64,000 nt of DNA, taken from positions 25,081-89,080 of the forward strand of contig NZ_CP139712.1 of NCBI RefSeq assembly GCF_034377145.1, written 5' to 3'. This document shows, piece by piece, positions 17,861 through 51,883 of this stretch. The position numbers and the translations under genes are program-made. The stretch comes from Sulfitobacter sp. OXR-159 (GTDB lineage Bacteria; Pseudomonadota; Alphaproteobacteria; Rhodobacterales; Rhodobacteraceae). How positions within the stretch are numbered: position 1 is the first letter of the stretch; each line of letters opens with the position of its first letter. A model generated the notes under the pieces. It did no database searches and was not told where the DNA came from. It saw nothing but the letters and a program-made list of their open reading frames with translations.

Positions 17861-17885
17861 ATTGTATCCGTTTGTAAAGTTGACC
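17861..17885 (+). promoter_or_regulatory. Tandem-octamer box and -35 upstream of the DsbD-like gene
   Basis: ATTGTATCcgTTTGTAAA (17861-17878) is one of six or seven similar boxes in this window, and one base later TTGACC (17880-17885) looks like a -35. ATAGAG follows at 17 bp. This is the layout of an OmpR-family activator bound next to the -35. Confidence 0.55.
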
Positions 17886-17955
17886 AACCGGGAGATGCAG
17901 CCATAGAGGTGCTTCGGATTTCGATCTCGGGACAAGGGTGGAAGCGAGCCAAAAG

Positions 17956-20049
17956 ATGATGCGAACCACGTTGCGCCTATTCTTCCTTCTCATGGCTTGC
18001 CTTTGGGCCTCCATGGGCTTTGCTGCATCGAGCGATACCTACGAGAATTCAACAATCACGGCCCGGCTCATCTCCGTTGAAAATGGGGTCGCGGAAACCT
18101 CCAGAACCCTTTCCCTTGGCCTGGATGTCGAGCTGGCCGAGGGCTGGAAAGCCTATTGGCGTTCGCCCGGCGAGGTGGGTCTGCCGCCTGAAATTTCATG
18201 GGATGGATCGGAAAATCTGGTGAGCGCACAGATGCTCTGGCCCGCGCCTGAGCGCTTCACGGCATTCGGCATCGAGAATTTTGGCTACAAGACCCGTGTC
18301 GTCCTGCCCATTCAGGCAGTTCTCGAAACTGCGGGCCAGTCCGCAACATTGCAGGCGCGTGTTTCATTGCTGGCGTGCTCGACTGTCTGTGTGCCGCATG
18401 ATTTCGATCTCGCACTGACAATTCCGGCGGGCACCGGGATTGACGCGAAGGCGGCGGGCCTGATTTCGGAGTATGCCCAGCGGGTGCCGCTTGGTCCCGA
18501 AGAGAGCGACATCATTGTCGAAACGGCGGTGATCGCGGATGATGCGCTTTATGTGACGGCGCGCAGTGCGAATGCCTTTGTGAAGCCGGATATCTTTCCG
18601 GAACTGGGGCCGGAATTCACCTTTGGCAAACCGGACATCCGAACCGATGATGCGGGAACAGCCCTTTGGGCCAAGCTGCCTCTTCTCGCGCAAGGGGAGG
18701 ATCCGCCGCCCCTGCAACTGACTTTGACCGATGGATCACGCGCGGTGACAGCGCAGCCCGCTTGGTCAGACCGCATCCCGGGTGCACCATTCGAGGTTAT
18801 GGCGAACCTGCCGGATCTGACGCAAATCCTGGCGATTGCGGCCTTTGCCTTTCTTGGCGGTCTGATCCTGAATGTCATGCCCTGTGTTCTGCCTGTCCTG
18901 TCCATCAAGCTGACATCGGTTCTCAATCATGGAAACAAGCCAGCGCACGAGGTCCGGAATGGGTTCCTGATGTCGGCGCTTGGCGTTCTGGTGTTCATGT
19001 GGGCCCTCGCCGCAATCATTCTGGTTCTGCAATCCGTCGGCGTCACCGTTGGATGGGGCCTGCAATTCCAAAGCCCTGTTTTCCTGACCGTCATGTTTCT
19101 GGTGCTTGCCGTGTTCTCTGCCAATCTGTTCGGGGTGTTCGAAGTTTCATTGCCCTCCGGGTTGCAGTCACGGCTGGCCAGATCAAGCGGTCGCGACGGG
19201 TATGGCGGAGATTTTGCAACAGGCGCCTTCGCGGCGGTGCTGGCCACGCCCTGCTCGGCCCCGTTTTTGGGGACAGCGGTTGCCTTTGCCCTGTCCGGGC
19301 GCCCGATTGATGTCATTCTCGTTTTCACGGCTCTGGGGCTTGGGCTCTCCCTGCCCTATCTGGTTCTGGCGGGGAAGCCTGGTCTGGTCCGGTTGTTGCC
19401 CAGGCCGGGACGTTGGATGGTTGTCGTCAAATGGGTGCTTGCCGGTCTTCTGGCCGGGACCGCGATCTGGCTGCTCTGGGTACTGATAGGGGTGGCGGGT
19501 GGCCGGGTGGCCATGACCGTGCTGCTTATGACGAGCCTTTTCATTCTTCTCGCAACAATACGTTTGCCGGGCAGATTGACGCGCCCGACAGCGCTGGTGG
19601 TGGTTGCTGTTCTCAGCCTTCTGGTGCCGACGGCGCTGACAATCCCGCCGCAGACGAGAGCGGTGGGCCAGGACTGGGTCGCGTTCGATCGCTCCGAGAT
19701 ACCGAAACTGGTGTCGCAGGGAAAAACCGTCTTTGTCGACGTGACCGCAGACTGGTGCCTGACGTGCAAGGCCAACAAGACGCTGGTGCTGGACCGTGCG
19801 CCCGTGGTCGACCAACTGCGGGGTGATAATGTCGTTGCGATGCGGGCAGACTGGACTAGGCCCAGCACTGACATTTCCCGGTATCTGGAAAGCCACAACA
19901 GGTTTGGCATCCCGTTCAACATCGTCTACGGGCCAAACGCGCCAGACGGGATCATCCTGTCCGAGGTTCTGACGTCCGAAGCCGTTCTCGACGCGCTGAG
20001 CAGGGCTGCACTTGGCGACCCTGTGACCGCTTTGAAAACGGATGGTTAG
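17956..20049 (+). CDS. DsbD/ScsB-like thiol:disulfide reductase
   Basis: After a signal peptide (residues 1-24) comes a periplasmic domain with Cys in LACSTVCVPHDFD, then an eight-helix membrane domain starting LNVMPCVLPVLS with partner cysteine in LATPCSAPFLG, and a C-terminal thioredoxin domain with active site DWCLTCKANK. This is the full electron relay from cytoplasmic thioredoxin to periplasmic clients. The ScsB branch protects against copper by keeping DsbG/ScsC-like proteins reduced, and a DsbA-like gene lies 5 kb on. I take ATG 17956 over a GTG at 17938 because the signal peptide begins there. Confidence 0.85.
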   Translation: MMRTTLRLFFLLMACLWASMGFAASSDTYENSTITARLISVENGVAETSRTLSLGLDVELAEGWKAYWRSPGEVGLPPEISWDGSENLVSAQMLWPAPERFTAFGIENFGYKTRVVLPIQAVLETAGQSATLQARVSLLACSTVCVPHDFDLALTIPAGTGIDAKAAGLISEYAQRVPLGPEESDIIVETAVIADDALYVTARSANAFVKPDIFPELGPEFTFGKPDIRTDDAGTALWAKLPLLAQGEDPPPLQLTLTDGSRAVTAQPAWSDRIPGAPFEVMANLPDLTQILAIAAFAFLGGLILNVMPCVLPVLSIKLTSVLNHGNKPAHEVRNGFLMSALGVLVFMWALAAIILVLQSVGVTVGWGLQFQSPVFLTVMFLVLAVFSANLFGVFEVSLPSGLQSRLARSSGRDGYGGDFATGAFAAVLATPCSAPFLGTAVAFALSGRPIDVILVFTALGLGLSLPYLVLAGKPGLVRLLPRPGRWMVVVKWVLAGLLAGTAIWLLWVLIGVAGGRVAMTVLLMTSLFILLATIRLPGRLTRPTALVVVAVLSLLVPTALTIPPQTRAVGQDWVAFDRSEIPKLVSQGKTVFVDVTADWCLTCKANKTLVLDRAPVVDQLRGDNVVAMRADWTRPSTDISRYLESHNRFGIPFNIVYGPNAPDGIILSEVLTSEAVLDALSRAALGDPVTALKTDG

Positions 20050-20051
20050 GC

Positions 20052-20820
20052 CTAAAAGAGGCCCATCGCACGCGCCGACATCCAGACGCCCATGAATATC
20101 ATCATCAGGTTTTCGGTCAGGGACACGAAACCCAGCGGCACGTTTGAACCGCCGCCCACGCAGGCGCACTTGATCTCGCGCTTATCGATGTAGACGGCCT
20201 TGAAAACTGAAGCCGCTCCGACCGTACCGATGAACAGTGCAACAGGCGCGCTGATCCAGACCAAGGCACCGGCGACCATGAGAATACCGGCAAGTGCTTC
20301 GCCGAAGGGATAGACATAGCCATAGCGCACCCATTTCTGGGCAAGCAGATCGTAGTTCAGAAACATCGTGGAAAACGTCTCGACGTCCTGCAGTTTTTGA
20401 ACAGCAAGAAAGCTCATCGAGATCGCGATGAACCACTCGAATGCCCGCAGCGTCAGGATCGAACCGTAAAACGCCCAACTGAGACCAAGCGCCATAAGGA
20501 ATGCGACCGCGAATATCGCAATGACGGGTTGATAAGTCGTCTCGTCGTCATCCTTTACGTCCTGGCCGAAAAATTCCCTCAGCGCGTCATAGCCACCAAT
20601 TCTTTCATTGCCGATAAAGGTCTGCGGAGTCGTTTCGACACCGTGTTCTTCCATGAAAGCATCCGTTTCCTCGCGGGTGTTCAGAGGCCGGTCCTCAATC
20701 GAATACCCCTCCCGCTCAAGCAGGTCCTTCGATTTTCAGCCCATAGGGACAAACATGCTCCTCCATCACCATTCGGTACAAAACCGCCGTCTTCGGGGTG
20801 GATTTTGCCTCTCTCGTCAT
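20052..20820 (-). pseudogene. Glutaredoxin-MauE/DoxX fusion protein with a frameshift
   Basis: From ATG 20820 the frame gives a glutaredoxin start (VLYRMVMEEHVCPYGLK, monothiol CPYG). One extra A in the AAAA run at 20733-20736 then shifts it to a stop. In the next frame the same domain resumes (SKDLLEREGYSIEDRP, TPQTFIGNERIGGYDALREFFG), followed by four membrane helices of the MauE/DoxX type ending near 20052. Removing one base restores a protein of about 255 residues. A role in redox supply to periplasmic thiols is likely. It follows the DUF305 gene on the same strand. Confidence 0.7.
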
Positions 20821-20840
20821 GACGCGTTCCTTTAAATCCT

Positions 20841-21791
20841 TTAACCGTTGCAGGTCCAATACCCGGTAAATCCGACAGTCAGAGGCGTCTCTCCCGTCAA
20901 TTCAAACAGCAGGGTGGCGTCTTCACCGTCCGCGTCACCCGGCGCCAGCGTGAATTGGCCACCATCGGCAGACAGGACGCCACCGGACGTCACTGTGTCT
21001 TGCGACGTGAAGTTGACCAGCGATCCGGATATCTTGGCGACGCCGTTCCCCGCCCCGTCCGTGACCAGAATGGGATCGGCGTTCACGGCGCGAATGAAAC
21101 GGCATTGTCCGTCGGACCCCAGTGCGCGTGTTATTTCTTCGGCTTTGAGCGGTGCAGGACGGATTCCGGCAATCACCGGGGTTGCAATCGCTTCTTGAAG
21201 CCCCTCCATTTCAGCCGGACCGTCCGCTTCACCAAGTGGCCATTCAGGACCGGCTTCGCCATTTGCCTCAATGTCATCTATGAGGAAACGCATTTCGGAA
21301 ATTTCGCGGTTTTGCGCCGTCACAATTTCCGAAGCCAGCGCCTCGACCCTTGGATCTGTCAGCTCGGCCCGTTCGCTTGTCATGATCGCAATGGAGTGGT
21401 GCGGAATCATCGCGCTCATCCAGCTTTCGTCCTGAATGGTCTCCTGGCTTCTCACGAGCCAGAGCGCGCCGGCGAACATCACGACAGACCCGAGAATGAT
21501 CGCGGCGTTGACGCCCTTGTTCTTGTACATGTTCAACATGAAAAGGAGCATCACGGTCGCCATCGTCGCGCCCATGATGAACGTCATGTAAAATCGGGTT
21601 TCGCTCCAGTAGACATGTTCGAAGGAGTACGAGTTGATGTACATCAGGCCGAACATGATCGCAGTCGATGTGCCGACCATCGCCAGAAACCGGCCATAGG
21701 ATGAACCTGAATGGCCTCCCGAATGTGCTGCACCTTCACTTGAACGGGTGTCGGACCCGCCACGAGATTTCCCGATCGCATCTTCAGACAT
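20841..21791 (-). CDS. DUF305 membrane-anchored protein
   Basis: A Gly/Ser/His-rich lead is followed by three membrane helices (about 35-55, 68-88, 95-112), a DUF305-type segment with SWMSAMIPHHSIAIMTSERA (about 122-141) and a C-terminal beta-rich domain of about 120 residues. The MxxHH...M pattern in DUF305 proteins binds copper. The gene heads the unit with the glutaredoxin-MauE pseudogene, and a CueR-type promoter lies just upstream. Confidence 0.75.
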   Translation of the reverse strand: MSEDAIGKSRGGSDTRSSEGAAHSGGHSGSSYGRFLAMVGTSTAIMFGLMYINSYSFEHVYWSETRFYMTFIMGATMATVMLLFMLNMYKNKGVNAAIILGSVVMFAGALWLVRSQETIQDESWMSAMIPHHSIAIMTSERAELTDPRVEALASEIVTAQNREISEMRFLIDDIEANGEAGPEWPLGEADGPAEMEGLQEAIATPVIAGIRPAPLKAEEITRALGSDGQCRFIRAVNADPILVTDGAGNGVAKISGSLVNFTSQDTVTSGGVLSADGGQFTLAPGDADGEDATLLFELTGETPLTVGFTGYWTCNG

Positions 21792-21823
21792 CTGATCTCT
21801 CCATCATGGATTCTATTTGTGGA

Positions 21824-21854
21824 GGAACAACATTCCAGCGCTGGAGGGTTTCAA
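21824..21854 (-). promoter_or_regulatory. CueR-type promoter of the DUF305 gene
   Basis: On the minus strand TTGAAA and TGTTCC are 19 bp apart, and the spacer holds the perfect CCAGCGCTGG dyad (21835-21844). The start codon is 33 bases downstream. Confidence 0.6.
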
Positions 21855-21910
21855 GACGATATATCGAAACGGCATGAAACCCCATAAATGTCTGGCCCAG
21901 GCATCGTGCG

Positions 21911-22300
21911 TTACGGGTCTTTGGCCAGATCTTTCAGGATTGGACAATCGGGGCGGTGATCGCCCTGGCAGGCGTCAACGAGGTGAGCCAGGGTCTCTCG
22001 CATCGACTTGAGCTGGGCGATTTTTTCGTCAACGGCGGCCAGATGCTCTTGAGCGACAGCCTTGACCTGTGCACTTTCCCGCGTCTCATCTTCATAGAGA
22101 TCAAGCAGCGTGCGGCAGTCTTCGATCGAGAACCCGAACGTCCTGGCGCGACCGAGAAATGCGAGCTTGTGGATGTCGCTGTCGCGAAAGGCGCGATAGC
22201 CGTTGTCGCTGCGCAAAGGCCGGACAAGGCCGATGTCTTCGTAGTAGCGGATTGTCTTCGCTGGCAAACCCGCGCGTTCTGATACTTCTCCGATGTTCAC
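21911..22300 (-). CDS. cueR: CueR, Cu(I)-responsive MerR-family activator
   Basis: The 129-residue protein has the MerR HTH (TIRYYEDIGLVRPLR) and the diagnostic Cu(I) loop CQGDHRPDCPIL with Cys111 and Cys119, plus Ser76 where Hg/Zn sensors have Cys. CueR binds dyads inside 19-bp spacers and activates copper export genes when loaded with Cu(I). It starts 9 bases after copA on the same strand, so it is probably under its own target promoter. Several matching sites lie within 20 kb. Confidence 0.9.
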   Translation of the reverse strand: MNIGEVSERAGLPAKTIRYYEDIGLVRPLRSDNGYRAFRDSDIHKLAFLGRARTFGFSIEDCRTLLDLYEDETRESAQVKAVAQEHLAAVDEKIAQLKSMRETLAHLVDACQGDHRPDCPILKDLAKDP

Positions 22301-22309
22301 ACCTGTCTC

Positions 22310-24820: not shown

Positions 24821-24847
24821 GAGGGCCTCCTCGGTTGAACTTACCCT

Positions 24848-24878: not shown

Positions 24879-24907
24879 GAGAGTATCTAATTTTTTTTGA
24901 TATTTGC

Positions 24908-24938: not shown

Positions 24939-24966
24939 TGAGGTTGTACCAAAAATGGAGGCCTTC

Positions 24967-25161: not shown

Positions 25162-25169
25162 GATTGTCC

Positions 25170-29284: not shown

Positions 29285-29743
29285 TCAATTGATCCCGTTG
29301 GCGCGCTGAAGTTCCCGCACATATGCAACAACCATCTTCACATCGCCGGGCGTGACGCCTTCAACTGGCGGCATATTGCCAAACTTCCAATGGTGCGCTC
29401 TGACACCTTGTTTCGCGGCAAGCAAAAAAGCGGCGTCACCGTGATGGCTCGGTTCATAGATCTTGTGGACAAGCGGCGGTGCCACGCCATTCTGTCCGGC
29501 AGCATTCGCACCGTGACAAGCGGCGCAAGCGCCATCGAAAACACGCTTTCCCAATTGGGCATTTGCTGAGAATTCAGCAGGCACAACCACGTCTGCAATC
29601 GGCGCGCCCTCTTCCGTCTGCGAAAGATCAGGCGTTGTCATTGTGTGGCCGGGCATCGAAGACGATGGCTGCAATTGCTGCCAGATCACAACCGCGCCAC
29701 CGACGACAAAAAACGCCGCAATCAGGATGCCGGACTTCGACAT
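29285..29743 (-). CDS. Membrane-anchored cytochrome c
   Basis: One N-terminal helix (residues 5-22), a Met-containing linker (SSMPGHTMTTP) and a class I cytochrome domain with [13 protein letters not shown] and axial Met in GNMPPVEGVTPGD. The start overlaps the stop of the L,D-transpeptidase upstream and the stop lies 5 bases before the next start codon, as in a tightly packed operon. Confidence 0.8.
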   Translation of the reverse strand: MSKSGILIAAFFVVGGAVVIWQQLQPSSSMPGHTMTTPDLSQTEEGAPIADVVVPAEFSANAQLGKRVFDGACAACHGANAAGQNGVAPPLVHKIYEPSHHGDAAFLLAAKQGVRAHHWKFGNMPPVEGVTPGDVKMVVAYVRELQRANGIN

Positions 29744-30315
29744 CAGATTAATCGTACCTGCGTGCCGACCGGTGTCCTTTCGAACACCTCGATGATTTGC
29801 TCGTTGTAGAGACCGATACACCCGCTTGAAGAGCGTCTTCCGATCTTGCGCGTATCATGGGTGCCGTGAATCCTGTAGTACGTCCAACTCAGGTGCAGGG
29901 CACGGACGCCCAACGGGTTATCCGGCCCGGGCGGCATATAGGCTGGCAAAGACGGGTCACGTTCGCGCATGGAGGGTGTAGGGGTCCAGTCAGGTTCGGG
30001 GTCCTTGAACGTGACTGTCGTGTAGCCGCGCTTTGTCAGCTCGTCAGACAAGGGAACCGATGTCGGATAAATGCGCATTTCGCCATCGGCCGTCCAGTGT
30101 TGCATCACGCGGGTAACGGTGTCTGCGATGATGATACCCTTGTCCAAAGCGTCAAAGTGGTCTTGCCAAGCGTGTGTACGAAACGATGAGATATTCCTTC
30201 GGACACTGGTTTGATCCACCTGCGCACGCAGGATGGACGGGGCCGCGAAAGCTGCCGATGCGGCACCTGCCGTGAATGCTCGACGCGTTACACGTGTTTG
30301 CTTGCGGGTCATCAT
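29743..30315 (-). CDS. Exported L,D-transpeptidase (YkuD family)
   Basis: A Tat-type signal (TRRAFTAGAASAAFAAP) leads to a YkuD domain with RIHGTHDTRKIGRRSSSGCIGL as active site. It is the first gene of a seven-gene leftward operon with cytochromes, multicopper oxidase and DsbA. A tandem-octamer box lies about 80 bases upstream. Cell-wall 3-3 cross-linking under copper stress is a reasonable inference, since copper is known to affect L,D-transpeptidases in E. coli. Confidence 0.85.
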   Translation of the reverse strand: MMTRKQTRVTRRAFTAGAASAAFAAPSILRAQVDQTSVRRNISSFRTHAWQDHFDALDKGIIIADTVTRVMQHWTADGEMRIYPTSVPLSDELTKRGYTTVTFKDPEPDWTPTPSMRERDPSLPAYMPPGPDNPLGVRALHLSWTYYRIHGTHDTRKIGRRSSSGCIGLYNEQIIEVFERTPVGTQVRLI

Positions 30316-30393: not shown

Positions 30394-30411
30394 TATGTAA
30401 CGATATGTATC
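30394..30411. promoter_or_regulatory. Tandem-octamer box upstream of the cytochrome-oxidase operon
   Basis: TATGTAACgaTATGTATC repeats an octamer at 10-bp pitch as at the other sites. Its orientation is opposite to the operon it precedes, so strand choice is uncertain. Confidence 0.5.
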
Positions 30412-31054: not shown

Positions 31055-32497
31055 CTAGTCGGGTTTGAGGTGACGAACAACCCGCGCCATATGTGGCGAG
31101 CCTTCCTCTTTCGGGGCTGACTCGGCGCTTTGTTTGACGGGCAGCGTGATTTCAGCGCGCAGACCCCCATCAGTGCGGTTTTTCAGTTCGATAGAACCAC
31201 CGTGCTCAAGGATGATGCTGCGCGCAATCGACAGCCCCAGGCCATGACCGCCGGTATCCTGTGATCGCGACGTCTCGAGCCTGACATAGGGTCCGAAAAC
31301 AGCCTCCAGCTGATTGTCGGGAATACCGGGCCCCTGATCGTCGATGGCGACCACTACCTCACTGCCCATGCGTTGCCACGAAACCCTGGCCTCACTCCCG
31401 TAGCGGATCGCGTTCTCAATCAGGTTTCTCAACGCGCGCCCCATCGCGCTTGGTTTCACGGATACGATGAGTGGACCTTGGCTGGTCACCTGAACCTTGT
31501 CCAAGCCCATACCAGTGATCAGATCGTGCAAATCAACCGATTGGACCTCTTCATGCTGTCCGACGCCCTTCGCGAAATCGAGGGTCGCATCGACCATCCG
31601 TTGCATCTCTTCACTTGACGCCACCAAGGACGTGCGCGTGTCTTCGTCGTCCACCATTTCGGCCCGCACCCTAAGCGCCGTCAAAGGCGAGCGCAGATCA
31701 TGCGCAAGCGCTGCAAGCATCTGGGTCCGGTCACTGACAAATCGCGTCAGGCGATCCTGCATGATGTTGAATGATCGGGTCAGATCCCGAACTTCCTTCG
31801 GCCCTACGACCGGCAGATCGCCCTTGGCGGCGCCGCGACCCAGACGTTCGGACGCAGTCGCGAGATCGTTGAGTGGTCCGGTCAGTCGGGACAGGAGAAA
31901 CCAGAAACTTGCAACCAGCAGAAGTCCCGCAGTCAGTGCAAAGGATATGTTGGACGCCAGCGACCTTTGCAGAGGCGGCCGTTCGAACCGCGTCTCGATG
32001 TTGAGCCAATTCCCACCGGACAGCGCAATGGACAGCTCCATCTCGATGGCCGCAAGGCTGCCCTGCATCATTTCGGCGTGCATTTGCGCCATTTCCGGTG
32101 ACAGGTTCGGAAGGGGCAGCAGACCTCCCTCGATTTCATGAACCTCAACCCGGATATCCCGGCTGTAGCTTTCCTGAAGCAGTGCCCGTATCCGCGCTTC
32201 GACCGCTCCACCGTCATCGTGTTGTCCGTGTGCAACCGACGGCTCGTCTGTAAGGTCGAACCGTACGAGCGGAGACGTTGCCGCGCGGACGATCTGGGCA
32301 TGCAATTCCGGGGGTGCGCCTTCAATCAACTGTGCGACATTTGCGGCCCTTCCGGCGGCTTCGGCACCGATGGCGGCCTGAATGGCTAACGAGCGTTCAT
32401 CAACGAAAAACCAAAGACTCAGAGCTTGCGCGAGGATCAAGACACCGAGGACCAGAAGGGCAATCTGTGCACGCAACGTCCGCGGAAGCAGCTTCAT
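31055..32497 (-). CDS. Membrane sensor histidine kinase (CopS/CusS-like)
   Basis: Two membrane helices (about 12-34 and 190-210) flank a periplasmic sensor domain containing a Met-rich stretch (MAQMHAEMMQG). Then come HAMP (SRLTGPLNDLATASERLG), the H box AALAHDLRSPLTALR and ATPase boxes NLIENAIRYG, DDQGPGIPD and GGHGLGLSIA. The ATG at 32497 overlaps the response-regulator stop. The Met-rich sensor and context suggest periplasmic copper sensing. Confidence 0.85.
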   Translation of the reverse strand: MKLLPRTLRAQIALLVLGVLILAQALSLWFFVDERSLAIQAAIGAEAAGRAANVAQLIEGAPPELHAQIVRAATSPLVRFDLTDEPSVAHGQHDDGGAVEARIRALLQESYSRDIRVEVHEIEGGLLPLPNLSPEMAQMHAEMMQGSLAAIEMELSIALSGGNWLNIETRFERPPLQRSLASNISFALTAGLLLVASFWFLLSRLTGPLNDLATASERLGRGAAKGDLPVVGPKEVRDLTRSFNIMQDRLTRFVSDRTQMLAALAHDLRSPLTALRVRAEMVDDEDTRTSLVASSEEMQRMVDATLDFAKGVGQHEEVQSVDLHDLITGMGLDKVQVTSQGPLIVSVKPSAMGRALRNLIENAIRYGSEARVSWQRMGSEVVVAIDDQGPGIPDNQLEAVFGPYVRLETSRSQDTGGHGLGLSIARSIILEHGGSIELKNRTDGGLRAEITLPVKQSAESAPKEEGSPHMARVVRHLKPD

Positions 32498-33213
32498 TCG
32501 CAAATCTCGACATCGCAGGAAAGACTATACCCCCCATGCCGGACAGTCGCGATGATCTTCGGGCGCAAAACGTCCTCTTCCATCTTCCGGCGCAACCGGC
32601 TCACCTGATTGTCGATGGTTCGGTCCAATGGACCGGCGACCCGGCCGGTGCTCAATTTGAGCAGCTCGTCGCGGCCAATGACCGTCCTTGGCCTTTGCAG
32701 GAACAGGGTCAGGAGTTTGAGTTCACCGGATGTAAGTTGCGTACGCGAACCGCCTTGGTCAATCAGTGTGCGGCCATCGAAATCCAGCTTTAGGTGTGCA
32801 AACTTCAACGTTTTCCCCGCAAAACCATTCGGTTTTGGGATCAGCTGCGTCCGACGCAATATCGCGTTGATCCGCGCCACCAGTTCCTTGGGATTAAACG
32901 GCTTGGCGAGATAATCGTCTGCCCCGCCATCCAGACCCGCGATGCGGTCTTCGTCGTCACCCAATGCGGTCAGCATCAGGATCGGAATATGCCCTTCCTT
33001 GCGCAATCGCCTGCACGCGGACAGCCCGTCTTCCCCCGGCATCATCACATCGAGGACAATCAGATCGAAATGCGCTTCCGCCAGCCTTGCGTCCATCTCA
33101 ACTGCATTTTCCGCCGCTGAAGCACGCATGCCGTTGCGTTCCAGATAACTGGTGACGGATTTCCGAATCTCTGAATGGTCATCGACGACAAGGATGCGTG
33201 GCAGATCGCTCAT
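32494..33213 (-). CDS. OmpR-family response regulator (CopR/CusR-like)
   Basis: Receiver domain residues 1-120 with phospho-acceptor Asp in LIVLDVMMPGEDG and Lys in YLAKPFNPKEL; winged-helix effector domain with RTIDNQVSRLRRKMEED and TVRHGGYSL. Such regulators bind direct repeats at 10-11 bp pitch, which fits the tandem-octamer boxes found around this cluster, including one 44 bases before its own start. It is the best candidate for controlling them. Confidence 0.85.
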   Translation of the reverse strand: MSDLPRILVVDDHSEIRKSVTSYLERNGMRASAAENAVEMDARLAEAHFDLIVLDVMMPGEDGLSACRRLRKEGHIPILMLTALGDDEDRIAGLDGGADDYLAKPFNPKELVARINAILRRTQLIPKPNGFAGKTLKFAHLKLDFDGRTLIDQGGSRTQLTSGELKLLTLFLQRPRTVIGRDELLKLSTGRVAGPLDRTIDNQVSRLRRKMEEDVLRPKIIATVRHGGYSLSCDVEICE

Positions 33214-33256: not shown

Positions 33257-33274
33257 TTTGTAGCCAAATGTAAC
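33257..33274. promoter_or_regulatory. Tandem-octamer box between the regulator and DUF411 genes
   Basis: TTTGTAGCcaAATGTAAC lies in the divergent promoter, consistent with autoregulation of the two-component system and control of the DUF411 gene. Confidence 0.55.
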
Positions 33275-33338
33275 AGCGCGGGCAGTCGACTTCGGGATAC
33301 CGAGCAACTATTTAAGGAAGAACATCGAGGAGTTTTAA

Positions 33339-33785
33339 GTGAACCGACGTGAATTTGGCCTTACGGCACTCAGCCTGGCCTTGGCCGGGCCTGCTTTGTC
33401 GCAAACCGCCGCACCCACGTTGCAGGTGACAAAGACACCGACCTGCGGCTGCTGCGGCGCTTGGGTAAATGAGATGATCGCTGCCGGTTTCAAGGCATCG
33501 GTCGAGGACGTAGATTACGACACGCTTCAGGTTCTGAAGCAGAAACACGGCATCGCGCCGGAACTGGCAGGATGTCACACTACGTCCGTGGGCGGATATT
33601 TCGTCGAGGGTCACGTGCCTGCGGCTGACATCGGGCGGTTGCTGAGCGAAAAACCTGTCGCGCGCGGACTGACAGCACCGGGAATGCCCATGGGTTCGCC
33701 CGGCATGGGCCCCCAAGGTGATCCCTATGATGTGCTGCTTGTACTGATGGATGGGTCGACGCAAGTCTTCGCAACCCACGGCTGA
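33339..33785 (+). CDS. DUF411 exported copper-binding-type protein
   Basis: A GTG start begins a Tat-like signal (NRREFGLTALSLALAG), then the DUF411 domain with TPTCGCCGAW, CHTTSVGGYFVEGHVPA and a Met/Pro/Gly tail (GMPMGSPGMG). DUF411 proteins recur in copper and silver clusters and are thought to bind the metal in the periplasm. It is divergent from the two-component system with a regulator box between. Confidence 0.8.
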   Translation: MNRREFGLTALSLALAGPALSQTAAPTLQVTKTPTCGCCGAWVNEMIAAGFKASVEDVDYDTLQVLKQKHGIAPELAGCHTTSVGGYFVEGHVPAADIGRLLSEKPVARGLTAPGMPMGSPGMGPQGDPYDVLLVLMDGSTQVFATHG

Positions 33786-34468: not shown

Positions 34469-34493
34469 ATTGTATCCGAATGTACCCTTGACC
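34469..34493 (+). promoter_or_regulatory. Tandem-octamer box abutting TTGACC before the DUF2933 gene
   Basis: ATTGTATCcgAATGTACC (34469-34486) is followed after one base by TTGACC (34488-34493), the same arrangement as at the DsbD-like gene. The following bases (TTGCCTCACTGGAATG) also faintly resemble a CueR dyad. Confidence 0.5.
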
Positions 34494-34544
34494 TTGCCTC
34501 ACTGGAATGTCGCAGAAGAACACGAGCATATTCTGGAGAGCTAC

Positions 34545-34856
34545 ATGTCTGACAATCAAAGTCAAAAATCCACCGGTTCATCGAAACTGATGCAGTATGG
34601 TATGATGGCCTGTTGTGCCGTTATGTTGTTTCCAGTCGCCGCATTCTTTATTGCAGGCGGCACGATCGCGGGTCTGTGGGGCAACGTCGGCCTTTTTGCG
34701 CCGCTCGCACTTTGTCTTGGTGCGCATGTCGTCATGCACAGGATGATGGGAAAGTCGTGTCACGGGTCAAGAGTTGAACAGGCGAACGAGGCGACTGTGG
34801 ATGCAGAATTTGAAGATGGCCAAGCTCCCGAACGAGAACTGGTACGCGCCCGCTAG
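34545..34856 (+). CDS. DUF2933-like small membrane protein
   Basis: The 103-residue protein has two membrane helices (about 16-40 and 48-64) with MMACCAVM at the first and HVVMHRMMGKSCHG after the second. The CC, HxxxHRMM and CH elements are typical of DUF2933 proteins in copper clusters, and they look like metal ligands. The start at 34545 is preferred, with GGAG upstream. Its 3' end overlaps the next small lipoprotein gene. Confidence 0.65.
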   Translation: MSDNQSQKSTGSSKLMQYGMMACCAVMLFPVAAFFIAGGTIAGLWGNVGLFAPLALCLGAHVVMHRMMGKSCHGSRVEQANEATVDAEFEDGQAPERELVRAR

Positions 34857-37326: not shown

Positions 37327-39327
37327 CTACTCCGCAGGAAGTGCTGCGGGCGCTGTCGCCTTGCGACGGGGTGCCCCGACGCGCAACCGCCGGTCAGACA
37401 GCGAAAGACCCCCACCAAGCACAAGCATCGCCGATCCGATCCAGATAAAGTTGACCAGAGGTTCATACAGGATGCGCAGGGTCCAAGCCCCTTGCGTGCT
37501 CTCGTCCTCGGCGGCCGGATTTGCGATGGACGCATAGAGATCACCGGCCATTGTCGATCTGATGGCGCTCTCTGTGGTGGTGGTTTGCGCGACCGGATAG
37601 GTACGCCGCTCCGGGAAGAGATCGGTGACATAGTTCCCCTCCCGGGCCACACGAAGCGTGCCACGATCCGCGAAGTAATTTGGCCCACGCACACGTTCGG
37701 CCCCCTCAAAGGTGACATCGAACCCACCAATGCTGACCTCTGTACCGGGCCGGACAAAGATGATTTCCTCGGATTTCCAGACCGTCGAGCCGATAAATCC
37801 GAACATCGCCATCGCGAGCCCCGCATGAGCCAGTGTCATCCCATGAGAGGATCTGGGCAGGTTGCGTGCACGGCGCACCGATTCCGGGAACGGTGCCTCA
37901 AACAGCTTTATGCGCATCGCCCATTCCCGCAGGGTTGAGAAAAACAGCCAGAATGCAAGCATCAGCGACAGATACCCCAACACCGGACCGCCCTCGGCGA
38001 GATACCAGGTCACCAATGTCGCGAGCACGGCCAGAACGACCACGAAACGCAACCGCTGCAGAACGCCCGCCAGATCGGCACGTTTCCAGGACAGGTAAGG
38101 CCCCAGCCCCATCGCAAAGACGAGCGGCAGCATCACGGGAATAAAGGACGCATTGAAGAAGGGCGGCCCCACCGACAGTTTTTCACCGCCCGTCGCGGCT
38201 TCGTAGAAGAGCGGGTACAAGGTGCCGAACAGCACAATGCCGGTGGCCGTGGCCAGCAGCAGGTTGTTCACCAATAGCCCCGCTTCCCGGCTGATCGGCT
38301 TAAACAGGCCGCCGGGCTCCATTGTCGGCGCGCGCCAGGCAAACAGAGCAAGGGAACCGCCGATCGAAACGGCCAGCAATCCAAGGATATAAAGTCCCCT
38401 TTCCGGGTCGACCGCGAATGCATGCACAGAGGTCAGCAGGCCCGATCGGACAATGAACGTGCCCAAGAGCGATAGGGAAAAAGTCAGGATCGCCAGAAGG
38501 ATTGTCCAGCTTTTGAACGCATCCCGTTTCTCCGTCACGATTGCGGAATGCAGCAGTGCCGTGCCCATCAGCCATGGCATGAAACTGACGTTCTCAACGG
38601 GATCCCAGAACCACCAGCCGCCCCAGCCAAGCTCATAATAGGCCCACCAGGATCCCAGCGCGATGCCTGCGGTCAGGCTCATCCAGGCAGCCAGCGTCCA
38701 CGGACGTACCCACCGTGCCCAGGCCGCGTCCACCCGCCCTTCGATCAGGGCGGCAACCGCGAACGAAAAGACAATCGAGAACCCGACATACCCGAAGTAG
38801 AGAAGCGGCGGGTGCATGGCGAGACCGACATCCTGCAATAATGGGTTGAGGTCCTGACCGTCGTCTGCCGGAGGGAAAACGCGGTCGAAGGGATTGGACG
38901 TCAGCAGCATGAAAGTCAGGAAACCGACACTGATCCAGGCCTGCACCGACAGCGTTCTTGCCTTCAGCGACAGAGGAATGTTCGATCCGAAGAGGGCGAC
39001 CGCCGCACCAAACACCGTCAGGATAAGGGTCCACAGCAACAGGGATCCTTCGTGACTGCCCCAGGTGCCTGCCACCTTGAACAGCATCGGTTTGAGTGAA
39101 TTGGAATTCTCCACCACGTTCTTGACCGTGAAGTCGCTTGTGACGAAGGCTTGCATCAGCGCCAGAAACGCGATGCCGACAAAGAAAACCTGACCGAACG
39201 AGGACCATCTGGCAGACTGCATCCACAGGATGTTTCCGCGCCCCGCACCGAGGATGGGCAGCACACTTTGAACAAGCGCCATGGCCAAGGCCAGTGCCAG
39301 CGCGAAATGACCGATTTCAGGTGTCAA
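37327..39327 (-). CDS. ccmF: Cytochrome c heme lyase subunit CcmF
   Basis: A membrane protein of about 666 residues beginning TPEIGHFALALALA, with many helices, the WWD-type motif GWGGWWFWDPVENVSFMPWL and conserved His in HPPLLYFGYVG and HAFAVDPERG. It joins heme to apocytochrome c. No ATG suits the family N-terminus; TTG at 39327 puts the start two residues before the conserved IGHFALAL. No ccmA-E genes lie nearby, so this module must share heme export with the chromosome. Confidence 0.9.
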   Translation of the reverse strand: MTPEIGHFALALALAMALVQSVLPILGAGRGNILWMQSARWSSFGQVFFVGIAFLALMQAFVTSDFTVKNVVENSNSLKPMLFKVAGTWGSHEGSLLLWTLILTVFGAAVALFGSNIPLSLKARTLSVQAWISVGFLTFMLLTSNPFDRVFPPADDGQDLNPLLQDVGLAMHPPLLYFGYVGFSIVFSFAVAALIEGRVDAAWARWVRPWTLAAWMSLTAGIALGSWWAYYELGWGGWWFWDPVENVSFMPWLMGTALLHSAIVTEKRDAFKSWTILLAILTFSLSLLGTFIVRSGLLTSVHAFAVDPERGLYILGLLAVSIGGSLALFAWRAPTMEPGGLFKPISREAGLLVNNLLLATATGIVLFGTLYPLFYEAATGGEKLSVGPPFFNASFIPVMLPLVFAMGLGPYLSWKRADLAGVLQRLRFVVVLAVLATLVTWYLAEGGPVLGYLSLMLAFWLFFSTLREWAMRIKLFEAPFPESVRRARNLPRSSHGMTLAHAGLAMAMFGFIGSTVWKSEEIIFVRPGTEVSIGGFDVTFEGAERVRGPNYFADRGTLRVAREGNYVTDLFPERRTYPVAQTTTTESAIRSTMAGDLYASIANPAAEDESTQGAWTLRILYEPLVNFIWIGSAMLVLGGGLSLSDRRLRVGAPRRKATAPAALPAE

Positions 39328-39405: not shown

Positions 39406-39449
39406 TTTGTCACCGTTTGTAACAGGATGCTGTGACAAATGATTACAAA
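39406..39449. promoter_or_regulatory. Double tandem-octamer box between ccmF and the EF-hand gene
   Basis: TTTGTCACcgTTTGTAAC (39406-39423) and, after 8 bases, the inverted GTGACAAAtgATTACAAA (39432-39449) form two facing copies of the box in a divergent promoter. One copy per direction is the simplest reading. Confidence 0.65.
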
Positions 39450-39523: not shown

Positions 39524-40069
39524 ATGAAAAAACAAGAAATTATTGCGCTTGGCGTGGTGATCGCGGTTGGCATGGCGCAAACAGCATTTGCGGAATCCGA
39601 CGGGGCTGCCGACAGCAAGCCTGACAGCGGGAATATGTCCGGCATGGCGATGGGCGATGGCGACAATCAGATGGGCATGATGGGCGGGGACATGATGCCG
39701 ATGATGCGAAAAATGATGAAGATGCATGCCGCTATGATGGGTGGCCAGGGCAACATGATGGGAATGATGGATCGGGACATGATGTCGACAATGATGTCCG
39801 GTGGACAGCCTCATGAAATGGCCGCGCAGATGTCCGAAAAAATGCGGGAGTTCGATGCGAATTCCGATGGAGCGTTGACACTTGACGAGTTCGAAGCCTT
39901 GCATATGGACGCAATGCGCGCGCGCATGGTAGATCGCTTTCAGCATCTCGATGCGGACGGTAACGGCCAGATCTCTCAGGACGAGATGGAAGATGCCGGT
40001 ACACGGATGAGCAAAATGAACGGTACTTCCACCGGAACGGACATGGAAGGTCATCATGACAGCGAATAA
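39524..40069 (+). CDS. Exported Met-rich EF-hand protein
   Basis: Signal peptide (residues 1-23), then a Met/Gly/Asp-rich region of about 75 residues with dozens of Met (MGMMGGDMMPMMRKMMKMH and similar), then two EF-hand loops, DANSDGALTLDE and DADGNGQISQDE. The Met-rich part should bind Cu(I) or Ag(I); EF-hands bind Ca. The fusion suggests a Ca-stabilised periplasmic copper store. It begins a rightward operon with a rhodanese and a multicopper oxidase. Confidence 0.75.
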   Translation: MKKQEIIALGVVIAVGMAQTAFAESDGAADSKPDSGNMSGMAMGDGDNQMGMMGGDMMPMMRKMMKMHAAMMGGQGNMMGMMDRDMMSTMMSGGQPHEMAAQMSEKMREFDANSDGALTLDEFEALHMDAMRARMVDRFQHLDADGNGQISQDEMEDAGTRMSKMNGTSTGTDMEGHHDSE

Positions 40070-42907: not shown

Positions 42908-42994
42908 GTCTGAGTATGTCAGCAAAAATGAAAACCGTGATTGCCTACTTTACCATTGACCTTCCCCCACAGGAAGCTGCGACCGTGAATCGCT

Positions 42995-43612: not shown

Positions 43613-43643
43613 TTGACCCTCCAGTAACTGGAAGGGTTATGTG
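43613..43643 (+). promoter_or_regulatory. CueR promoter of the second copper ATPase
   Basis: TTGACC and TATGTG are exactly 19 bp apart around CTCCAGTAACTGGAAG, closely matching the copA promoter. The start codon is 30 bases downstream. Confidence 0.8.
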
Positions 43644-46019: not shown

Positions 46020-46038
46020 TCGCAAACTAAGGAGATAG

Positions 46039-46968: not shown

Positions 46969-47085
46969 AAACAGGTCATCGTCGCGGGCAGCAATTCTCA
47001 TTGTTATCGGGCAAGCGAAATACCCGCCAAGCTTTGCTACCGCACCTTTTGTTATCTCGAACCGGGCATGGTCCGGCTGATCCAT

Positions 47086-47652: not shown

Positions 47653-47668
47653 ATGATCCAAATCATAT
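47651..47668. promoter_or_regulatory. FNR/Crp-type palindrome between two divergent genes
   Basis: ATATGATCCAAATCATAT is a perfect palindrome with core TGAT-N4-ATCA (47654-47665), the FNR half-site pattern. It touches the start of the Crp/Fnr gene and lies about 60 bases before the divergent ATG at 47726, so autoregulation plus activation of the neighbour is likely. Confidence 0.7.
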
Positions 47669-47725
47669 TTCAGGGTCCGATCAGGTACTAGGCTGAATCC
47701 GAATACACTCAGGAAAGGCTGGTCC

Positions 47726-48245
47726 ATGCGACTGATACCCGTTCTCTTCGCTGTCTTGCTTGCGACACCCGTTACGCCGCAACAAATGCATTCATCCATG
47801 GGTCACGCGTCCGACGCCCCAGGAAACCGGCCAGTCCGCCTTCGCCGCATTGGCCGAAATAGTTGTGCTGCTCCAGGCCGATCCCGAAACCGATTGGGGC
47901 GCCGTCAATATCGACAAACTGAGGGACCATCTGGTCGATATGGACCTTTTGACACGAAAGGCAGAGGTCACCCGCATTCTGCGGCCCGACGGGGCACGGT
48001 TCGAAGTGCGTGGCAGCCCGCGTGTCCTGTCGGCCATCAACACAATGGTTCCCGCCCATGCACCGTTCCTTGCCGGTGAAACAGGCTGGAGTGTTGCGTC
48101 AGAAGAAATGGAGGATGGTGTCGCACTGATCGTGGGTGGCGATGGTGAACAAATACAGGGCCTTGGTTTCTTTGGTCTGACAATCGGTGTACATCATCAA
48201 GAGCACCATCTGATGATTGCGAAAGGACGCAAGCCGCATCATTGA
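47726..48245 (+). pseudogene. Exported protein of unknown family with a frameshift
   Basis: The ATG at 47726 (AGGAAAGG upstream) begins a signal peptide (MRLIPVLFAVLLATPVTPQ) and MHSSMGHASDA. One extra C in the CCCC run near 47818 then shifts the frame. In the next frame the mature protein continues (ETGQSAFAALAEIVVLLQADPETDW, then HHQEHHLMIAKGRKPHH). With one base removed it would be about 172 residues, with His/Met-rich ends suggesting metal binding. I do not recognise the family. Confidence 0.55.
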
Positions 48246-48314
48246 GCACGCGCCCAAGGCTCATATGCGGACCCAGGCCGCAATGGTCACTTCGCCAACA
48301 CTACGCTCGGATAT

Positions 48315-49244
48315 TCACAAAGAATCTGATGTCGACACCAGATCCGCAGAATTAACCGTCACACGCCTGCGGGACCATACGATCAGGGCCGCGCCAAGGA
48401 TAATCATCGGCAACGACAGCAGTTGGCCCATTGTCAGCCCATAGCCCGCCCAATGAACCGCATGTCCAATCGGGTTGTCCTGCGTGACGAACTGCATATC
48501 AGGCTGCCGGAAGAACTCGACAAGGAACCTTGCGCTTCCGTATCCCGCCAGGAACAGGCCAGTAAGGCTTCCGGGAAAGCGCAGCCAACCGCGTTTCCAG
48601 GCCAGAAAGATCAGGACCGAGCCAAGCAGGATACCCTCCAGAAGAGCCTCATAAAGCTGGGACGGATGGCGGCCACACAGGCCCACGACGCCCGCACAGG
48701 ACTGGGCCGCCTCGCCGGGGAATGCCACCGCCCAGGGCACATCGGTCGGACGGCCCCAAAGCTCGTTATTGGTGAAGTTGGCCAGCCGACCGAGGAAAAG
48801 ACCCGGTGGTGTTGCAACAGCGAGCAGATCCGCCGTTGATAGAACGGGTGCGCCGTTGCGATAGCAAAAAAGCAAGGTGGCCACGACCACGCCGAAAAAG
48901 CCGCCATGAAATGACATACCACCCTGCCAGACCATGAAGATTTCGACGGGGTTCTGAAAATAGTACTGAGGTTGATAGAAAAGCACGAACCCCAGCCTGC
49001 CCCCCACGATCACGCCCAGAATGATCCATGTCAGCAGGTCTTCCAGTTGCTTGGGTTGCAGCGGCGGCGCCCCGGCCCCCCAGACTGACGAAGAGCGGAC
49101 CAATGCGACACAGATGCGCCAGCCGATAAGGAGGCCAACAATATAGGCCAGCGCATACCAACGCAGGGCAAAGCGGAACGATCCGATATCAACGGCAAAA
49201 ATCTCTGTTCCGATGTCAGGAAATTGGATAATCGAAGTCAGCAT
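48315..49244 (-). CDS. lgt: Prolipoprotein diacylglyceryl transferase
   Basis: The 309-residue membrane protein has the Lgt signature [26 protein letters not shown] and [12 protein letters not shown]. Lgt attaches diacylglycerol to lipobox cysteines. A second lgt on an accessory replicon, with lspA elsewhere in the window, points to support for the cluster's own lipoproteins. Nothing else on its strand is adjacent. Confidence 0.9.
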
Positions 49245-49703
49245 TCTTTGTTACCTTTGCCTGTTTCACACAAGGCCACATTTTGTTTCCCGCAACGGAC
49301 GTTGGCGCGTTCAACCCTGTTGTCCCCAGCCCAAAGCGCTGTGGTGAATGTGCCATCCTTGCGTGCGGGAGTCGGTTCCGTTGAACCAGAGATGACGCAC
49401 ATCGGCACCCGCGTCCATGTGTTCAGGCGCTTGTATCCCATGAGTTTTGTACTTGTTTGTAACGGTTGGAAGCTCCGCCGCCTACTGGATCCGTCCGTCG
49501 CGGGAAATCAGCCGATCAAGGTCGCGCTCCATGATCTGAATTCGCTCCCGCGTCCTGCAACGACCATTGCGCAACCACATCTATGATCACGGATATGTTC
49601 ATTGAAGTTGCGCGCGCCCGGCACAATTCAACGGATCATGACGGCACATAATGGTGATAACCGGGATCAAAGCAGGACCAGCGGCATCGCAAAAGGAGTT
49701 CAG
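49245..49703. other. Intergenic region between lgt and the DUF3047 gene, with one regulator box
   Basis: TTTGTACTtgTTTGTAAC at 49446-49463 is a tandem-octamer box pointing right, two bases before TTGGAA. On the minus strand a 32-codon frame (ending RERIQIMERDLDRLISRDGR-like) near 49490-49585 looks like the C-terminal scrap of a coiled-coil protein. Nothing else is recognisable. Confidence 0.45.
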
Positions 49704-50369
49704 ATGTTTATACGGTCCCTCGCAGCGACACTTTTCATCGCTTTTGTTGCATTAGCTGCAAACGCCCCGCCCCTCTATGCGCAAGGAAAGACAATTCCAT
49801 TCGATGGAAGCTGGAAAGAACAGGGCCTCTTGCGGCTCTTTTCGAACGAGTACGGCCTGCAAGGTCGGCGGCTGGACGTGATTTCCGATGGCACGGTTTC
49901 GGTTCTCTGGCGTCCGGTCAGCGCAGCCCTTGGCACCGCAAAGGCAGCAATGTGGGAATGGTCCGTCACGCAGGGTGTTAAGGGAACCGACCTCACACGG
50001 CGCGGCGGCGATGATCGCAATCTTGCTTTGTACTTCATATTCGTCGATCCGCAGACCGCAAGCACGCTTGGCCGAACAACGGCGCGCAAATTGCTGCGTG
50101 ATCCCAATACGCGGGCGCTGGTTTATGTCTGGGGTGGCAATCATGCGAAAGGCGCATTGCTGAACAGCCCCTACTCGACGGGTCTCAAATCGAAAATTCT
50201 GCAAACGGCGCAAACCGGCAACTTCACCGAGAATGTGAACCTGGATCGCGATTTCGTGCGTGCGTTCGGGGACATGCCAAAGGTTCTGGTCGGTCTTGCG
50301 GTGACAGCCGACAGCGATGATACCGACGGAAAGATCCTTGCGGCCATTCAGGACCTGCAGATACGTTAG
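49704..50369 (+). CDS. DUF3047 exported protein
   Basis: An AAAGGAG site precedes ATG 49704. Signal peptide to about residue 27, then a DUF3047 domain (TIPFDGSWKEQGLLRLFSNEYG, LWRPVSAALGTAKAAMWEWSV, and a C-terminal VLVGLAVTADSDDTDG). Relatives are periplasmic and of unknown role. It precedes the broken multicopper oxidase by about 130 bases. Confidence 0.7.
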   Translation: MFIRSLAATLFIAFVALAANAPPLYAQGKTIPFDGSWKEQGLLRLFSNEYGLQGRRLDVISDGTVSVLWRPVSAALGTAKAAMWEWSVTQGVKGTDLTRRGGDDRNLALYFIFVDPQTASTLGRTTARKLLRDPNTRALVYVWGGNHAKGALLNSPYSTGLKSKILQTAQTGNFTENVNLDRDFVRAFGDMPKVLVGLAVTADSDDTDGKILAAIQDLQIR

Positions 50370-50497
50370 GTGCTCTCCGGTATTCCGCCAAACCTGGGCG
50401 CCGATCTGCAATGTATCAATATATCTCGCCGGGACGCCCTTCCGCAACGGTGGGGGATGTGGGTTGCAGGCCCCAGAAACGGAATACACGGAAACCC

Positions 50498-51782
50498 ATG
50501 CTTAAGCGTCTTCAGATGATGGTTGCGCTTGGCGCAGCCACGCTCCCCCTGCCCCTGAGTGCGGCTTCGGTGCCTGTCACCCTGACGCCCGGCCTTCACC
50601 CGGATCGGGTCGCGGGACATTGCAATGCTTGGATTCAATGGCACCTGTCCCGGCCCCGAAATCAGACAGCGCCAGAACGATATTCTGCGGGCGCGGGTGG
50701 AAAACGGGCTGGAGGACGGGACCCTCGTACACTGGCATGGCATTCGGTTGCCCAACGCGATGGACGGCGTAAACGTGCTGACACAGGATGTCATCATCCC
50801 GAATGAGGGTTACGAGTACCGGTTTCCGGTTTCCGGTTCCCGATGCCGGAACCTACTGGTATCACTCCCACTACCTTTCCTACGAACAGGTCGCCCGCGG
50901 ACTGTTCGGCCCCTGATCGTCGAAGAACCTGCCCCGCCAGACGTGGATCAGGACATCACGGCCATCCTCTTCGACATTCGGCTTGATGACACCGGCCAGT
51001 TCGACATGGAATTCGACCGCGCTGATTTCATAACAGCAGGTAGGCTGGGGAACTTGATGACCACCTTCCTGTCGTCTGAGCAGGCGCGGCTGGGGGATCA
51101 CATCCGGTTGCGTCTGATCAATCCGACACCGGATCGCATTTTCGAGATACGTATCGACGGGCTGACGGGCTTTTGTGTGGCCTATGACGGGATGCCGCTG
51201 CCCGAGCTGGTTTCGCTGGGCAATCTAAAACTCGCACCGGCGCAGCGCATCGACATCATCGCAGATGTGACGGGTGATGTGATCCTAAGAGAAACCGTGC
51301 CTTCGGGTGGCGAGGAACTGGGGGGCATTATGTTGAACGGTCAGCGACAAATCCGGTCTGCGCCGATAGCTCCCCTCCCCGCGAACCTCGTGCCCGCGCC
51401 CGGAGAGATCACGCAAACGGCAGATCTCTTCATGCAAGGCGGTGCCGGGGACGGCGCGCACGGCGGGTTCGGGGGCTGGGCCTTCAACGACGTGAGCGGT
51501 CTGCCGAACAAACCGCTGATTTCGGCAAGACGTGATGAAGCAGTGCAGGTGCGGATGGTGAACGACACTGCTTTTCCGCACGGTATCCACCTGCATGGCC
51601 ACCATTTCTGGGAAACCGATCAGAATGGTGCGCGAACCCACCTTCGCGACACGACCCTCGTAGCGCCGGGCGAGACGATGACGATTGTGTGCGTACTCGA
51701 CAATCCCGGCGCGTGGATGCTGCACTGCCATATGCTGAGCCATCAGGCTGATGGCATGGCGACCTGGATGCAAGTCAGCTGA
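50498..51782 (+). pseudogene. Multicopper oxidase with several small indels
   Basis: A signal peptide starts at 50498 (MLKRLQMMVALGAATLPLPLS). Near 50615 the frame shifts and the oxidase continues (MLGFNGTCPGPEIR, LVHWHGIRLPNAMDGVN). Around 50825 a 7-bp tandem duplication (GGTTTCCGGTTTCC) pushes the WYHSH copper motif out of frame, and a 1-base loss in a C run near 50915 restores it. The rest, with HGIHLHGHHFWE and [13 protein letters not shown], is intact. The product would lack one T2/T3 ligand motif. Sequencing error cannot be excluded for the single-base events. Confidence 0.75.
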
Positions 51783-51865
51783 GGTCGGAGCGGTGGTTGC
51801 GCCAACCGTTGACGCGAAGCTGTGCCACAACGGGATATCGCTCTTAACAACAAGCACAGGCCCGT

Positions 51866-51883
51866 CATACAAAAGTTTACATG
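51866..51883. promoter_or_regulatory. Weak tandem-octamer box (inverted) before the sialidase-like gene
   Basis: CATACAAAagTTTACATG matches the reverse complement of the box less well than the others. It lies 70 bases before the next start. Confidence 0.3.

Follow-up and report, generated by a model that had tools for sequence, protein, structure and literature searches.

An 18-bp DNA box, built of the octamer WTTGTMnC twice in tandem at a distance of 10 bp, recurs in a 64,000-nucleotide stretch of the genome of Sulfitobacter sp. OXR-159 (contig NZ_CP139712.1, positions 25,081 to 89,080; hereafter the window). At the level of sequence, the box is conserved in relatives, keeps preferred positions, co-occurs with the gene of an OmpR-family response regulator and takes part in a composite promoter. 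We take it, with a probability of about 0.8, to be the operator of the OmpR/EnvZ-type two-component system encoded at 31055–32503 (kinase) and 32494–33213 (regulator), which would activate its own operon and envelope copper genes. In the proposed mechanism, a head-to-tail dimer of the regulator would occupy the two octamers, which lie on the same side of the helix and precede the -35 element, and we infer that it activates its own operon and the DUF2933, EF-hand, DUF411, DsbD-like and ccmF genes; the transpeptidase, cytochrome c and multicopper oxidase genes are less sure targets. To judge from the gene content, copper would be the signal and the kinase its sensor. The box before the DUF2933 gene abuts the -35 element of a promoter with a 19-bp spacer, which carries a CueR-like dyad in some relatives, so that the periplasmic (two-component) and cytosolic Cu(I) (CueR) inputs probably meet there.

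Box sites in the window

A strict pattern, TTTGTANCNNTTTGTAAC, with up to three mismatches, gave eight matches in the window, compared with a mean of 0.35 and a maximum of 2 in shuffled sequences; one of the eight (43388) lies within the Rieske gene, another (49456) overlaps that at 49446, and the site at 34469 is absent. Because the strict pattern misses 34469 and over-scores 49446, a position matrix was used in its place, trained solely on regulator promoters of other genomes and grown by iteration to 144 sites, some of which may be weak for that reason. Above 12 bits, the matrix found nine sites in the window, against a mean of 1.22 (maximum 5) for 100 column-permuted matrices. The corresponding numbers were 11 against 3.7 (maximum 10) above 10 bits and 13 against 7.29 (maximum 23) above 8 bits; low-score counts are thus near the permuted background and high scores alone are informative.

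The seven highest-ranking sites were, in this order, 39406, 33257, 30394, 34469, 39432, 50410 and 17861. All of these except 50410 had been proposed in the initial annotation, made from the sequence alone, and these six main sites stand, as does the 10-bp pitch of their octamers. Their location between genes, as stated there, is confirmed with a gene list made by hand from open reading frames (ORFs). Five weaker matrix matches lie within genes (33395, with the highest score of 12.7; 26421, 11.7; 18274, 11.2; 46219, 9.6; and 38179, 9.2). The matrix scan covered the window and the loci of relatives, and counts for the whole genome (4.42 Mb, eight contigs) come from pattern searches. The strict pattern with up to two mismatches matched nine times, five of them in the window (C6:25081-89080), and the reversed control three times; WTTGTMNCNNNNTGTMNC matched exactly nine times against one for its control, and NNTGTATCNNNNTGTATC, with one mismatch, six times against one. 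Elsewhere in the genome, matches were seen within a stop-to-stop frame (C1:2953219), at a frame edge (C1:3066431) and at C4:46327.

The site before the DsbD-like gene (17861..17878, plus strand, matrix score 16.0) is followed by a G and by TTGACC (17880-17885), and it matches the composite pattern described below with two mismatches. The box at 30394..30411 (plus strand, 20.9) lies between two L,D-transpeptidase-like genes and points away from the one starting at 30315, with position and orientation alike in relatives; the genes from which it points away had been taken for a cytochrome-oxidase operon and are better described as L,D-transpeptidase, cytochrome c and multicopper oxidase genes. 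Between the regulator and DUF411 genes, the box at 33257..33274 (plus strand, 22.3) occupies the conserved position at about -60 of the regulator, 44-61 bp before its start codon. The box of the DUF2933 composite promoter is found at 34469..34486 (plus strand, 18.9). A facing pair is composed of 39406..39423 (plus strand, 22.4), pointing to the EF-hand gene, and 39432..39449 (minus strand, 17.9), pointing to ccmF. Two further sites are uncertain. At 49446..49473 (plus strand), before a DUF3047 gene, there is a weak array of three octamer-like units, which scores 7.6 in the register first proposed (49446), where the C at box position 8, present in 143 of the 144 training sites, is missing, and 12.6 in the register 10 bp further on (49456). 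A possible extra box at 50410..50427 (plus strand, 16.4) precedes the multicopper oxidase gene; it is located within a mechanical ORF, but upstream of the likely start of that gene (~50495). The weaker copy claimed at 51866 could not be upheld, with no matrix match above 7.

The regulator and its relatives

The gene at 32494..33213 (minus strand) encodes an OmpR-family response regulator, which its profile matches and conserved upstream box make the most likely reader of the box. It is the sole regulator of its kind in the window, as had been stated (next tblastn match, E 0.45), and it has a box before its own gene. Its Response_reg (108.6) and Trans_reg_C (61.2) domains both score above cut-off, as in the OmpR/PhoB family, and the tandem direct repeats of the box, at a pitch of about 10 bp, are those of an OmpR/PhoB-family site. 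The gene at 31055..32503 (minus strand) encodes an EnvZ-like sensor histidine kinase with HAMP, HisKA and HATPase domains, assigned by domain and curated models, with a Met-rich stretch in its N-terminal half. The best curated models for the two proteins are those of E. coli OmpR (NF007005) and EnvZ (NF007004), but the scores of 237.7 and 198 lie below the equivalog cut-offs of 331 and 415, and the copper gene context is a further difference from EnvZ/OmpR. OmpR sites consist of GTTACA-type tandem 10-bp half-sites, which the window box resembles. Comparison of the regulator with the sequences of solved structures yielded OmpR-family and other receiver-domain proteins, with MtrA as the best match. 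The regulator scored 132.1 with the CopR/SilR/CztR model (TIGR01387), under the cut-off of 279.2, and the kinase failed the CopS model. In view of the tandem octamers and the failed CopR/SilR model, the idea of the box as a half-palindrome of the CopR/CusR type was given up.

Relatives of the regulator were found in 31 of 198 genomes of the family at E <= 1e-75, and in named genomes the best 80 loci among the matches listed were taken, with flanks of up to 10 kb. After removal of near-duplicates, the expression.TTGT[AC].C....TGT[AC].C was searched in the 200 bp upstream of 92 regulator genes. It was present in 57 of these regions, against a mean of 0.01 and a maximum of 1 in 100 mononucleotide shuffles. 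The expression had been composed after an initial scan, from whose loci 23 of the 92 regions came; the remaining 69, from named genomes, contain the box in 31 of 36 cases at 54-66% identity of the regulator and in 8 of 33 at 46-53%. In the genomes of the family the figure is 18 of 23. In a hold-out, a matrix built from loci of at least 60% identity found a site above 12 bits within 350 bp in 33 of the 41 loci below 60% (permuted mean 0.38). The recurrence upstream of relatives agrees with the earlier assignment of the box to an OmpR-family regulator, most likely that at 32494-33213.

The positions are also preserved. Boxes facing away from the regulator are found at -57 to -64 in 30 of 38 cases and those facing it at -89 to -107 in 38 of 39; both orientations are combined as a facing pair in 20 of the 57 regions, 31-32 bp apart in all but one (19/20). 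These data bear on the possibility that the boxes are matches by chance, frequent between genes since motif and intergenic DNA are both rich in AT. The motif is indeed AT-rich in DNA of 59% GC, so that intergenic bias alone is weak evidence, the permuted matrices match nearly as often at low scores, and 49446 and 51866 may be chance matches. Nevertheless, given the preferred positions kept across genera and the shuffle, permuted-matrix and reversed-pattern controls, we regard this explanation as refuted for the six main sites and as hardly credible overall.

Outside the 250 bp preceding the regulator, the matrix was run over 76 relative loci (four near-duplicates dropped) together with 20 permuted matrices. 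It found 37 such sites above 18 bits, against a permuted mean of 1.6 (maximum 6), and 65 above 12 bits, against 24 (maximum 45). L051, a locus that nearly copies the window, contributes three of the 37, two are the regulator promoter of L071 itself, and several, in Bradyrhizobium and others, precede the regulator at a greater distance. In 14 loci, three of which (L057, L061 and L065) are mutually close relatives, 18 of the sites are close to genes of the copper cluster. The genes by these 18 sites, labelled from tblastn matches of window proteins, some of them weak, are those of L,D-transpeptidase, cytochrome c, multicopper oxidase, DsbG-like, EF-hand and CopB- or CopA-like proteins. Box-like sites above 12 bits also occur in 26 of the 34 loci with regulators of 46-53% identity (L096-L130, including Bradyrhizobium and Vreelandella titanicae).

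Regulators 99-100% identical to that of the window are found in Tritonibacter horizontis, a member of the Rhodobacterales whose regulator is identical, in a Hyphomonas metagenome-assembled genome and in another genome of the family (L051, L052 and L022), which suggests that the cluster was transferred recently. Window 16904-17611 encodes a transposase of the IS240 type.

Composite promoters and CueR-like dyads

The TTGACC one base past the box at 17861 and 34469, already noted in the initial annotation, is confirmed; overlooked there was that its placement is that of the -35 element of a promoter with a 19-bp spacer, often CueR-like. One base past the 34469 box, TTGACC and a CueR-like dyad, ACCTTGC-N6-GGAATGT (34491-34510, two mismatches), occupy 34488..34510 on the plus strand; among the window boxes, this is the only one with a dyad. 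Among 154 boxes above 14 bits, TTGAC appears 12 times in the next 40 bases, 10 of them at offset +1 (one from L051). In 18 non-redundant composites, chosen for their TTGACC, the dyads are partial, and a -10-like hexamer follows at 19 bp, with A as the second base in about 80% (CATATG, CAAATG, TATCRT and others, by eye).

A search for the dyad ACCTTCC-Nx-GGAAGGT with up to two mismatches found 35 sites with N6, 16 with N7 and 1-8 with other spacings. A TTGAC-like -35 was counted in 37 N6 promoters (window included); in 15 of them a box above 13 bits falls between -150 and +100, always at one of a few spacings: one base before TTGACC in seven, reversed at -48/-49 in six and reversed at -39 in two. 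The 25 N7 promoters (window included) have a single one with a box, the L073 site, which is also in the N6 list; in both sets some entries are close relatives and some sites are listed twice. A scan of the window for the N7 dyad with four mismatches was discarded as background (29 listed, shuffled mean 26.45), and of the two approaches the comparison of spacings alone was informative. The composite pattern is present in 45 of 394 genomes of the family, with none for the reversed control. It follows the regulator: 15 of 31 regulator-positive genomes have it compared with 3 of 167 regulator-negative ones (Fisher p = 1.5e-11, taking G000-G197 as the 198 genomes of the regulator search). Each of the three regulator-negative composites deviates at two positions and has TTGACC altered, and that of G067 is the box before the paralogue regulator; in at least one positive genome, G031, the composite lies within the promoter region of the regulator itself.

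The genes downstream were assigned by eye in 13 loci, and a DUF2933-like gene stands behind 8 of 10 composites (L057, L060, L061, L063, L064, L065, L073 and, at an approximate position, L066) and behind none of three non-composites. L066 and L073 each have a single box flanked by divergent N6 promoters; it is one base away from the first and about 28 away from the second. In 61 genomes of the family, TTGACCTTCC-N6-GGAAG matched 13 times, spread over 11 genomes, against 2 for the controls. For the N7 form there were 29 matches in 20 genomes and none for the controls; no box above 4 bits was found near the 13 N6 sites. By eye, the genes behind these sites encode L,D-transpeptidase (L177, L182), DUF2933-like (L184), CopZ-like (L181), cytochrome c-like (L179, L186), Met-rich (L187, L188) and Rieske (L185, the window's own) proteins and an unrelated-looking protein (L189), and no gene was recognised by eye behind L178, L180 and L183. 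In the window, an N6 CueR-like dyad promoter without a box (42959-42978) directly precedes the Rieske gene (42995), and an N7 CueR-type promoter (43616-43636, two mismatches) precedes the gene of a CopB-like P-type ATPase (43674).

The comparison of dyad-only and box-linked promoters indicates that similar genes have the dyad alone, the dyad with a box, or a box with a worn dyad. At the composite promoters, CueR may bind and act jointly with the two-component system. A tentative explanation, which we hold to be possible and somewhat less than even, is a regulatory takeover in progress, in which genes ancestrally under CueR-like control (DUF2933, L,D-transpeptidase/multicopper oxidase) would have gained an OmpR-type box beside the CueR-type -35, either one base upstream of it or, in the other orientation, about 28 bases off. 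As different genera show the dyad only, box and dyad, or box and decayed dyad, the composite could be a copper gate serving two compartments or a remnant of the transition.

Other readings, related systems and neighbouring genes

Several observations weigh against an operator of the 32494-33213 regulator serving copper genes. The 30394 box is oriented away from the genes it would serve, and the two facing boxes before ccmF may be what a rearrangement has left of an ancestral EF-hand/regulator promoter. No box was found with the expression in 35 of the 92 regulator upstream regions, and the window regulator itself retains one box of the pair (33257), its partner at -90, where many relatives have an intact box, being apparently decayed (33286..33303, minus strand, the best 18-mer of the region yet at -3.7 bits). 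The composite is missing in 16 of the 31 regulator-positive genomes at two mismatches. Four of the ten composites (L054, L060, L064 and L067) have no dyad within three mismatches and that at 17861 has none either, so dual control is not general. Loci with regulators of 46-53% identity show no copper cluster; in a tally with the kinase set aside and some contigs short, what remained of the markers was an EF-hand gene in 9 of the 34 loci and a single transpeptidase. For regulators of at least 54% identity, CopB-like genes are found in 21 and EF-hand genes in 29 of 41 loci. Finally, in the lineage of a second regulator of the genome, the C1:1716826 paralogue, 9 of 11 loci have a box upstream of the regulator's own gene when a low cut-off is applied, with no separate control, and 7 of 11 have one above 15 bits. 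Own-gene boxes in this lineage rule out a box exclusive to the window regulator.

The boxes might be read mainly by the C1:1716826 regulator or by a paralogue on C4, the window regulator being one of several readers. The C4 paralogue, 69% identical to the window regulator, has an identical box 44-61 bp before its gene, and that at C1:1716826, about 42% identical, is preceded by a triple tandem octamer (C1:1716732-1716759, L001). The segment RTIDNQ(V/I)(S/A)RLR(R/K)K, which we take to be the region of the recognition helix, is nearly alike in all three. However, among genomes G000-G079, all seven with a TTGAC-type composite have a regulator of the window type and just two of them one of the C1:1716826 type, and we consider mainly paralogous reading unlikely, though well worth keeping in mind. 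Because the paralogue lineage and the distant regulators lacking the copper cluster also carry it, the box does not by itself define a copper regulon, contrary to the earlier suggestion that it may; the sequences compared lead us to assign the operator to a subfamily of regulators, whose link to copper would be the form taken in the Rhodobacterales and near relatives. The C1:1716826 paralogue is divergent from an Fnr-type-looking gene (by eye), with a P-type ATPase fragment beyond. A further, 63% identical copy of the regulator, on the chromosome of this genome (G000 C1:2276782-2277454, L012), is truncated ahead of the C-terminal part and adjoins a shortened kinase frame, yet both facing boxes are retained there, as is an EF-hand-like gene.

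A role of the boxes as repressor sites or structural elements, not activator sites, would fit the 30394 box, which points away from its genes, and the box at about -60, which is directed away from the regulator. At promoters with an identifiable -35, the box is nonetheless upstream of it, one base before TTGACC, and for CenR the available part of the account places sites of activated operons upstream of the -35 and repressed ones over the promoter (PMC9275681). Repression or structure thus appears improbable, and activation by the two-component system is preferred. CenKR of Rhodobacter sphaeroides, in the same account, is likewise an OmpR-family system with a 10-bp direct repeat upstream of the -35 at activated genes, so that an OmpR-type dimer activating transcription would fit the tandem repeats here; it differs in its motif, TGA-N8-TGA, and in its envelope and cell division regulon.

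In CusR, CopR and PcoR of E. coli and Pseudomonas, as far as the accessible portions of the sources describe them, an OmpR-family regulator also lies beside copper genes, with a site upstream of its own operon that is conserved on horizontally acquired copper loci (PMC11195947). Their sites are palindromes or inverted repeats (ATTCATnnATGTAAT; AAAATGACAAnnTTGTCATTTT; TGACA-N4-TGTCA; PMC11195947, PMC12428095), in contrast to the tandem octamers here, and the window box is not the palindromic operator of the CopR/SilR/CztR type (TIGR01387; palindromes in PMC11195947). UzcRS of Caulobacter, responsive to U, Zn and Cu according to the accessible text, is another alphaproteobacterial metal-responsive two-component system (PMC8224329). 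CueR-type promoters resemble part of the composites in TTGACC, the CueR-like dyad and the 19-bp spacer, and CueR is encoded in the window, but the box-linked half-sites are 6 and not 7 bases apart and a two-component box stands one base before the -35. Copper signalling in marine bacteria has been surveyed (PMC10141476), and the accessible part of that survey does not describe the box; a literature search whose coverage left out most subscription journals returned no account of it or of a joint CueR/two-component promoter. The box offers a widely conserved, testable candidate operator for a system of the OmpR/EnvZ type that accompanies copper genes in the Rhodobacterales and relatives, where the published copper two-component systems found, in the text accessible, use palindromic sites. 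It also suggests that a single promoter can combine the sensing of copper in the periplasm with that in the cytosol, and the natural variants (dyad only, both, box only) are material for asking how regulons change hands.

The remaining genes of interest in the window were assigned mostly by profile matches. A DsbD-like protein with DsbD_N, DsbD_TM and thioredoxin domains is encoded at 17938..20049 (plus strand), and a CueR-type MerR-family Cu(I) regulator at 21911..22300 (minus strand; TIGR02044, 164.4 bits, above the cut-off of 147.4). The L,D-transpeptidase-like gene at 29743..30315 (minus strand), below the curated cut-offs, is the first of a run of cytochrome c and multicopper oxidase genes, a probable operon by gene order. 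The DUF411 protein is encoded at 33339..33785 (plus strand) and the DUF2933-like small membrane protein at 34545..34856 (plus strand), the latter scoring 20.5, just under the Pfam cut-off of 21, with look-alikes behind composites in relatives. The CcmF-like gene at 37327..39327 (minus strand), with a presumed TTG start, is the first of ccmF, G, H and I, which extend down to 35137, and a Met-rich EF-hand protein is encoded at 39524..40069 (plus strand; sequence and profile match). The multicopper oxidase at 50411-51782 seems to be divided between two frames (50411-50806 and 50625-51782) and may therefore be broken.

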